Shown one piece after another: positions 5,851 through 6,704 of a DNA stretch of 48,459 nucleotides (within the stretch, counting starts at the first letter, position 1; each line of letters opens with the position of its first letter). Source of the stretch: Deltaproteobacteria bacterium (GTDB lineage: Bacteria; Desulfobacterota; DSM-4660; Desulfatiglandales; HGW-15). The stretch covers positions 1 through 48,459 of the forward strand of contig JAFGGA010000201.1 of the NCBI GenBank assembly GCA_016930835.1, read 5' to 3'. The position numbers were made by a program, and so were the translations under genes. The notes under the pieces were generated by a model. That model was given only the letters and a program-made list of their open reading frames with translations, had not been told where the DNA came from and made no database searches.

Positions 5851-6062
5851 TTACTAATGGGAGCATTCATATTTAGACACCCTTATTGTTGATCTTTTAA
5901 CCGATTTTGAGCAATCTATGTCAACCTCCCATGCCGCCCAGGGGGCGGTAAAGGGCTTGGTCGAATTTGAGTTGAAACTGACAAAAAAACTTCCCCTGGA
6001 CGGCATAGGTCATCAAAAGATTGCCCATTTTCATGTATAAAAAATTATGGTCTCAATAGTAA
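5851..6062. mobile_element. MITE-like element, copy 1 (212 bp)
   Basis: Starts TTACTAATGGGAGC and ends GGTCTCAATAGTAA, whose reverse complement is TTACTATTGAGACC: imperfect 14-bp terminal inverted repeats (11 of 14 match). A second copy with the same ends lies at 25781-25936. The two share the first roughly 100 bases (TATTTAGACACCCTTATTG, ACCGATT, GAGCAAT) and the last roughly 50 bases. Copy 1 has about 56 extra central bases. No transposase is encoded, only a 39-codon open frame. No clear target duplication was seen. Confidence 0.7.
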
Positions 6063-6088
6063 AGCGGTTCAGGCTGTTTGCCTGGGCA

Positions 6089-6244
6089 AAACCGCTCTTT
6101 GGGGAAGAGGAGATCAAACTGGATACCCGGACAAGAATCTTTATCAACCCGTGGGGTGTCTTATTGGGTGGTCCCGCACGGCATTCGGGATTGACGGGTC
6201 GTAAAAATTCCATTGACACCTATGGGGAATACACCCGGCATAGC
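6089..6244 (+). pseudogene. metK: Fragment of S-adenosylmethionine synthetase
   Basis: Fifty-two codons read like an internal piece of methionine adenosyltransferase: [22 protein letters not shown] and [10 protein letters not shown] correspond to the conserved stretch TRFxINPxGxFxxGGPxxxxGLTGRK followed by DTYG. The frame then departs from the family and ends at 6274. There is no start codon of its own; the open frame begins inside the adjacent MITE-like element. Both flanks of the gene are missing, so this is a relic. A complete metK is presumably elsewhere in the genome. Confidence 0.65.
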
Positions 6245-6260
6245 GCAAAGGAAAAAAGTG

Positions 6261-6704
6261 ATGATGTCAAATAAAGTTGCTATTGCAGAAGAAAAATTCT
6301 TAAGTGGTTACAATTGAGCCCAATCCACTCTTTACGCTTTCCGGGAAGAAGGCGATCTGACTGAGGAAACAGCCCTGAAGCTCGCATGTGGTTTGGGTGC
6401 GGGCATGGCGCGAAAAGGGCAAGTCTGTGGTGCCGTGACGGCCGGCATTCTTGTTTTGGGATTGCGACACGGCATGGGTCGCAAAGAGGATAGATCAGCC
6501 ATGGAATGGACATACCTGAAGACAGCAGAGCTCATGAAGATTTTCGCCCAAAAACACGGCACGTTTGTTTGCCGCAACTTGCTCAATGGATGTGATCTAA
6601 CAACTGACGAAGGGCAAAAATACTTCAAGGAGAATGACCTGCTAAACAAAATATGTGTGCCGTGTGTCCAGAGTGTGGTCGGCATCCTCGAAAGCATTTT
6701 GTAG
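6261..6704 (+). CDS. C-GCAxxG-C-C family selenoprotein (UGA = Sec at codon 19)
   Basis: Small putative redox protein of 147 residues. The frame opens at ATG 6261 (AAGGA eight bases upstream), reads [18 protein letters not shown], meets TGA at 6315-6317, then continues [12 protein letters not shown] and stays open to 6704. Family members have Cys exactly here (SGYNCAQS), so the TGA replaces a conserved redox Cys, as expected for selenocysteine. A hairpin at 6335-6354 with G residues in its apical loop, about 26 bases after the TGA, fits a bacterial SECIS. Later family Cys are present: [24 protein letters not shown] and ICVPC. An annotation starting at the internal ATG 6393 would lose the N-terminal third. 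The serine hydrolase gene follows after 12 bases. Substrate unknown. Confidence 0.85.
6335..6354 (+). promoter_or_regulatory. SECIS-like hairpin
   Basis: CGCTTTC (6335-6341) pairs with GAAGGCG (6348-6354), including one G-U pair, around a CGGGAA loop. The loop guanines lie 26-28 bases after the UGA, in the 16-37 base window known for bacterial SECIS elements that recruit SelB. Confidence 0.65.

Follow-up and report, generated by a model that had tools for sequence, protein, structure and literature searches.

The analysed window, a stretch of 48,459 nucleotides that corresponds to the entire contig C42 in a draft genome of 4.7 Mb (224 contigs, 95% complete), contains a reading frame that is interrupted by an in-frame TGA, and the question raised by this locus is whether this codon terminates translation or encodes selenocysteine (Sec). 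The initial annotation had proposed a Sec-encoding UGA in a redox protein of the C-GCAxxG-C-C family. This central claim is upheld here, as the sel genes of the genome, the Cys-containing homologues and the conservation of the SECIS element all agree with it, and the refutations named along with it failed. With a probability of about 0.96, the gene is judged to be a genuine selenoprotein gene of the C-GCAxxG-C-C (PF09719/TIGR01909) family, in which UGA codon 19 would be translated as Sec.

The frame is opened by an ATG at position 6261 (ATGATG), runs through the TGA and is closed by a TAG at 6702-6704. The initially annotated ribosome-binding site in front of the ATG could be read directly from the sequence (Table 1), and GGAG/AAGG-type sites are encountered 5' of the start codon in most orthologues of the gene. 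Without read-through, the sole conventional open reading frame (ORF) is one of 103 amino acids that begins at a TTG at 6393, and gene callers blind to Sec would report just this fragment, as had been predicted. Read-through restores a family protein of 147 amino acids, which matches the whole PF09719 profile (96.2 bits, cut-off 27, profile positions 1-118) as well as TIGR01909 (84.2 bits, cut-off 47.4, profile positions 1-120); since a full-length family match is obtained only with read-through, these matches support a Sec-encoding gene. Moreover, the Cys pattern of the family is present in the protein (U19, C56-G-A-V-T-A-G, C104 and C132, accompanied by C111 and C135), and the alignment columns of this pattern are invariant or nearly so. 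Other UGA-interrupted frames in the window were found on inspection to be mostly antisense to other genes or located just before a start codon.

Table 1. Features at and around the predicted selenoprotein gene (positions in the window).
Feature	Position	Strand	Remarks
75-aa ORF overlapping the selenoprotein start; probable metK (methionine adenosyltransferase) fragment	6047..6277	+	PF02773, TIGR01034
Ribosome-binding site AAGGA	6248..6252	+	Read directly; 8 nt before ATG
Predicted selenoprotein gene, C-GCAxxG-C-C family	6261..6704	+	147 codons, UGA read as Sec
UGA codon 19, predicted Sec at the family's first conserved Cys	6315..6317	+	Codon comparison with homologues
Predicted bacterial SECIS stem-loop	6335..6354	+	7-bp stem, loop CGGGAA; synonymous conservation and kept pairs
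PF00144 serine beta-lactamase-family (beta-lactamase/esterase) protein, 362 aa	6717..7805	+	169.5 bits; 12 nt downstream of the selenoprotein gene

Orthologues were sought in 395 genomes of the phylum, 389 genomes of the class, 85 genomes of the order and the GTDB contig collection. This search revealed nine further distinct orthologues in other genomes (69-76% identity), and codon 19 is TGA in all ten sequences when the gene of the window is included. At the same position TGT or TGC is found in each of the 14 distinct Cys forms that are closely related (about 51-64% identity), which confirms that the UGA takes the place of the family's first conserved Cys. In a maximum-likelihood tree the ten UGA forms constitute one clade (support 99/99), and a second, separate UGA group (L049 and L050), which has the same UGA site and a different hairpin, is located elsewhere in the family tree and probably represents an independent Cys/Sec exchange. 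The family tree as a whole needs three Cys/Sec changes, of which the firm branches force at least two. Within its own order the UGA form is restricted to the genome of the window (1 of 85), and the nearest same-family gene in the order, L080, is a Cys form positioned elsewhere in the tree; this distribution makes horizontal spread of the UGA-form gene likely. The selA gene was found in 8/8 other UGA-form genomes tested. A search for tRNA-Sec at E<=1e-10, in which 135 candidates were scored, did not find it in three other UGA-form genomes (G232, G464 and G706), each of which holds both the UGA form and selA, and G706 is 73% complete. A partial relative with an in-frame TAG (L078, G465:C2:1829-2155) is possibly a pseudogene or a copy truncated at a contig end.

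The genomic neighbourhood of the gene was also considered, as the initial annotation had seen novelty in the pairing of a selenoprotein with a beta-lactamase-fold protein. Sec could be inserted as proposed and the downstream PF00144 gene could in addition be a functional partner, encoded in one operon and sharing its role, and the common strand and the 12-nt gap would fit such an arrangement. However, no homologue of this neighbour was detected around 26 related loci, where several of the flanks span only 1.5 kb, and it is missing beside all nine other distinct UGA orthologues as well as the Cys relatives examined, where the neighbouring genes encode methyltransferases, cupin, prismane, cytidylate-kinase-like and DsbC-like proteins, and others. 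The pair is thus local, the beta-lactamase-family gene was rejected as a conserved partner, and a shared function of the two genes is considered improbable. On the upstream side, the ORF that overlaps the selenoprotein start matches 28 of the 138 positions of the C-terminal domain profile PF02773 (E 4.6e-7) and scores 34.8 bits against TIGR01034, far under the cut-off of 309; it is probably a metK remnant, which suggests that the selenoprotein locus is a rearranged site.

Bacterial Sec insertion involves a SECIS element, and a SECIS-like hairpin had been noted 26 bases after the UGA. The arms of its stem are located at 6335-6341 and 6348-6354 and enclose the loop at 6342-6347, so that the stem starts 17 nt and the loop 24 nt after the UGA, and the first loop G (6343) follows it by 26 nt. 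The element agrees with the published bSECIS model (PMC13188914) in the size of its loop, the length of its stem, the loop G and the spacing, being a stem-loop just 3' of the UGA with spacing within 16-37 nt. The 20-nt core alone has a folding energy of -7.4 kcal/mol, borderline with respect to the published limit of -7.5, and reaches -8.5 to -8.9 with flanks; this energy is no better than that of shuffled sequences (z between -0.46 and 0.48 for the different stretches folded), and with z about 0 it was dropped as proof of a SECIS. A search of Rfam gave no match at gathering score and one chance match at E 6.5.

The reality of the SECIS rests on cross-species conservation rather than on folding energy. 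Across codons 26-31 of the ten sequences in the UGA clade, the identical codon is used in 245 of 254 same-amino-acid comparisons (0.965), versus synonymous identities of 0.598 for codons 1-18, 0.445 for codons 20-25 and 0.536 for codons 32-143. A value of 0.965 was not attained by any of 200,000 six-codon sets drawn at random, in a procedure that treats codons as exchangeable and ignores kinship. In the 14 Cys relatives the synonymous identity of codons 26-31 is 0.41 and equals that of the surroundings (0.41 and 0.38). Every distinct UGA sequence retains all pairs of the stem, two of which show one-sided variation, and two-sided compensatory changes were not found among these sequences because they hardly vary in this region. 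Taken together, these patterns provide strong evidence for a SECIS within the coding region; the position, loop G and synonymous freeze of the initially annotated hairpin bear it out, and its folding energy does not.

With these comparisons available, the TGA can hardly be explained as an error of sequencing or as a nonsense mutation of recent date, in a gene that would then encode Cys or be a pseudogene, perhaps reduced to the frame that starts at 6393. The origin of the window in a 224-contig draft assembly and the existence of the TTG-started 103-aa ORF are in line with such an explanation, but the same UGA recurs in the nine further orthologues, dN (0.06-0.16) stays well under dS (at least 0.75) 3' of the UGA, codons 1-18 are conserved among family members, and synonymous variation is frozen at the stem-loop. 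The UGA orthologues refute an error or pseudogene for practical purposes.

The presence of a Sec insertion machinery, which the initial annotation had named as a check, was assessed by family searches in the genome itself, and selA, selB, selC and selD were all found. The genome contains selA (616 bits), selB (404 bits, contig C106), a tRNA-Sec (71.8 bits) that ARAGORN also reports as tRNA-SeC with anticodon TCA (UCA), and selD (374 bits; L023, C103:21087-22016). The latter gene has an in-frame UGA in the motif GSGUASKL, the usual Sec position of SelD, and is itself a selenoprotein gene. A second C-GCAxxG-C-C gene is present about 14 kb from selD on C103 (L005:1429-1890); it has a UGA at the equivalent site, and its apparently stand-alone product resembles the HUGP portion of the HUGP/GUXX-star fusion selenoprotein (226.8 bits). 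The window encodes a protein that we take to be a polyphosphate kinase, which is closest to that of a same-family genome (63% versus at most 47% for others), and the contig thus appears to belong to the source genome. Decoding of the UGA as an amino acid other than Sec (Trp, Gly or one inserted by near-cognate suppression) is scarcely credible, given that the aligned residue in relatives is Cys and never Trp or Gly, that the genome holds the full Sec machinery and selD as a second UGA-containing selenoprotein gene, and that constraint on the stem-loop was observed in UGA members only. Sequencing error, pseudogene formation and stop-codon reassignment are effectively excluded.

Reading of codon 19 as Sec can be placed in a mechanistic scheme on basis of established bacterial Sec biology and the conserved element. 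SelB would bind the SECIS stem-loop, which lies within the coding sequence at a distance of 17 nt from the UGA, and bring the tRNA-Sec that reads codon 19. The product would be a small, all-helical protein: AlphaFold2, provided with the ten-sequence alignment, returned a confident model of this kind (pLDDT 90, pTM 0.87), in which residue 19 is located at the start of a helix (19-26), so that Sec would occupy its first turn. The start of a helix is often used by catalytic Cys or Sec residues. The name of the family, the arrangement of the Cys residues and the exchange between Sec and Cys lead us to regard the product as most likely a thiol/selenol redox protein with a reactive Sec19, which one of the conserved Cys residues (56, 104, 111, 132 and 135) would resolve. 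Relatives in the PDB were found neither by sequence nor by fold search (no structural match with E under 0.001), and no biochemical characterisation of the C-GCAxxG-C-C family was found in literature; with no recognisable solved structure in its family, the protein is a reasonable structural target.

The SECIS may also have affected the protein that it overlaps. Residue 28 is Arg, encoded by CGG, in 10/10 UGA forms, and these bases are part of the SECIS loop and supply loop guanines; in the 14 distinct close Cys relatives residue 28 is Cys (11/14) or Ser (3/14). It thus appears that the SECIS changed the residue encoded at this position. A tentative extension, which we consider possible but rather unlikely, is that the SECIS dictates residues 26-31 (A-F-R-E-E-G/S) and turned Cys/Ser28 into Arg, and that the gain of Sec19 may thereby have cost a second redox Cys. 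If true, the resolving chemistry of the Sec forms would differ from that of the Cys forms, and the coupling of the SECIS sequence to the missing Cys would be a small example of how constraint on an RNA shapes a protein close to its active site.

Among known systems, the closest are the C-GCAxxG-C-C (seleno)proteins themselves (TIGR01909/PF09719), with which the window protein shares its length, profile coverage, conserved Cys pattern and the position of Sec at the first conserved Cys. The HUGP/GUXX-star fusion selenoprotein (NF045501) is distantly related and has its Sec at the equivalent position; against this model the window protein scores 47.9 bits (cut-off 325), and it does not have the GUXX-star part. 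The DVU_1555 family C-GCAxxG-C-C protein (NF045669) belongs to the same superfamily, and membership of this family was rejected (47.2 bits versus a cut-off of 103). That the family includes selenoproteins, as initially annotated, is documented: two forms of it are listed among the known prokaryotic selenoproteins (PMC13188914), one entry is given in PMC9312934, and the NCBI name of the TIGR01909 model is 'C-GCAxxG-C-C family (seleno)protein'. As these reviews already list the family, the gene is a well-supported new example within a known selenoprotein family and no new kind of system. It differs from the family at large in its particular clade, its own SECIS sequence and its invariant Arg28, and it brings into this family a clean clade that comprises ten distinct selenoproteins and has a defined SECIS sequence.
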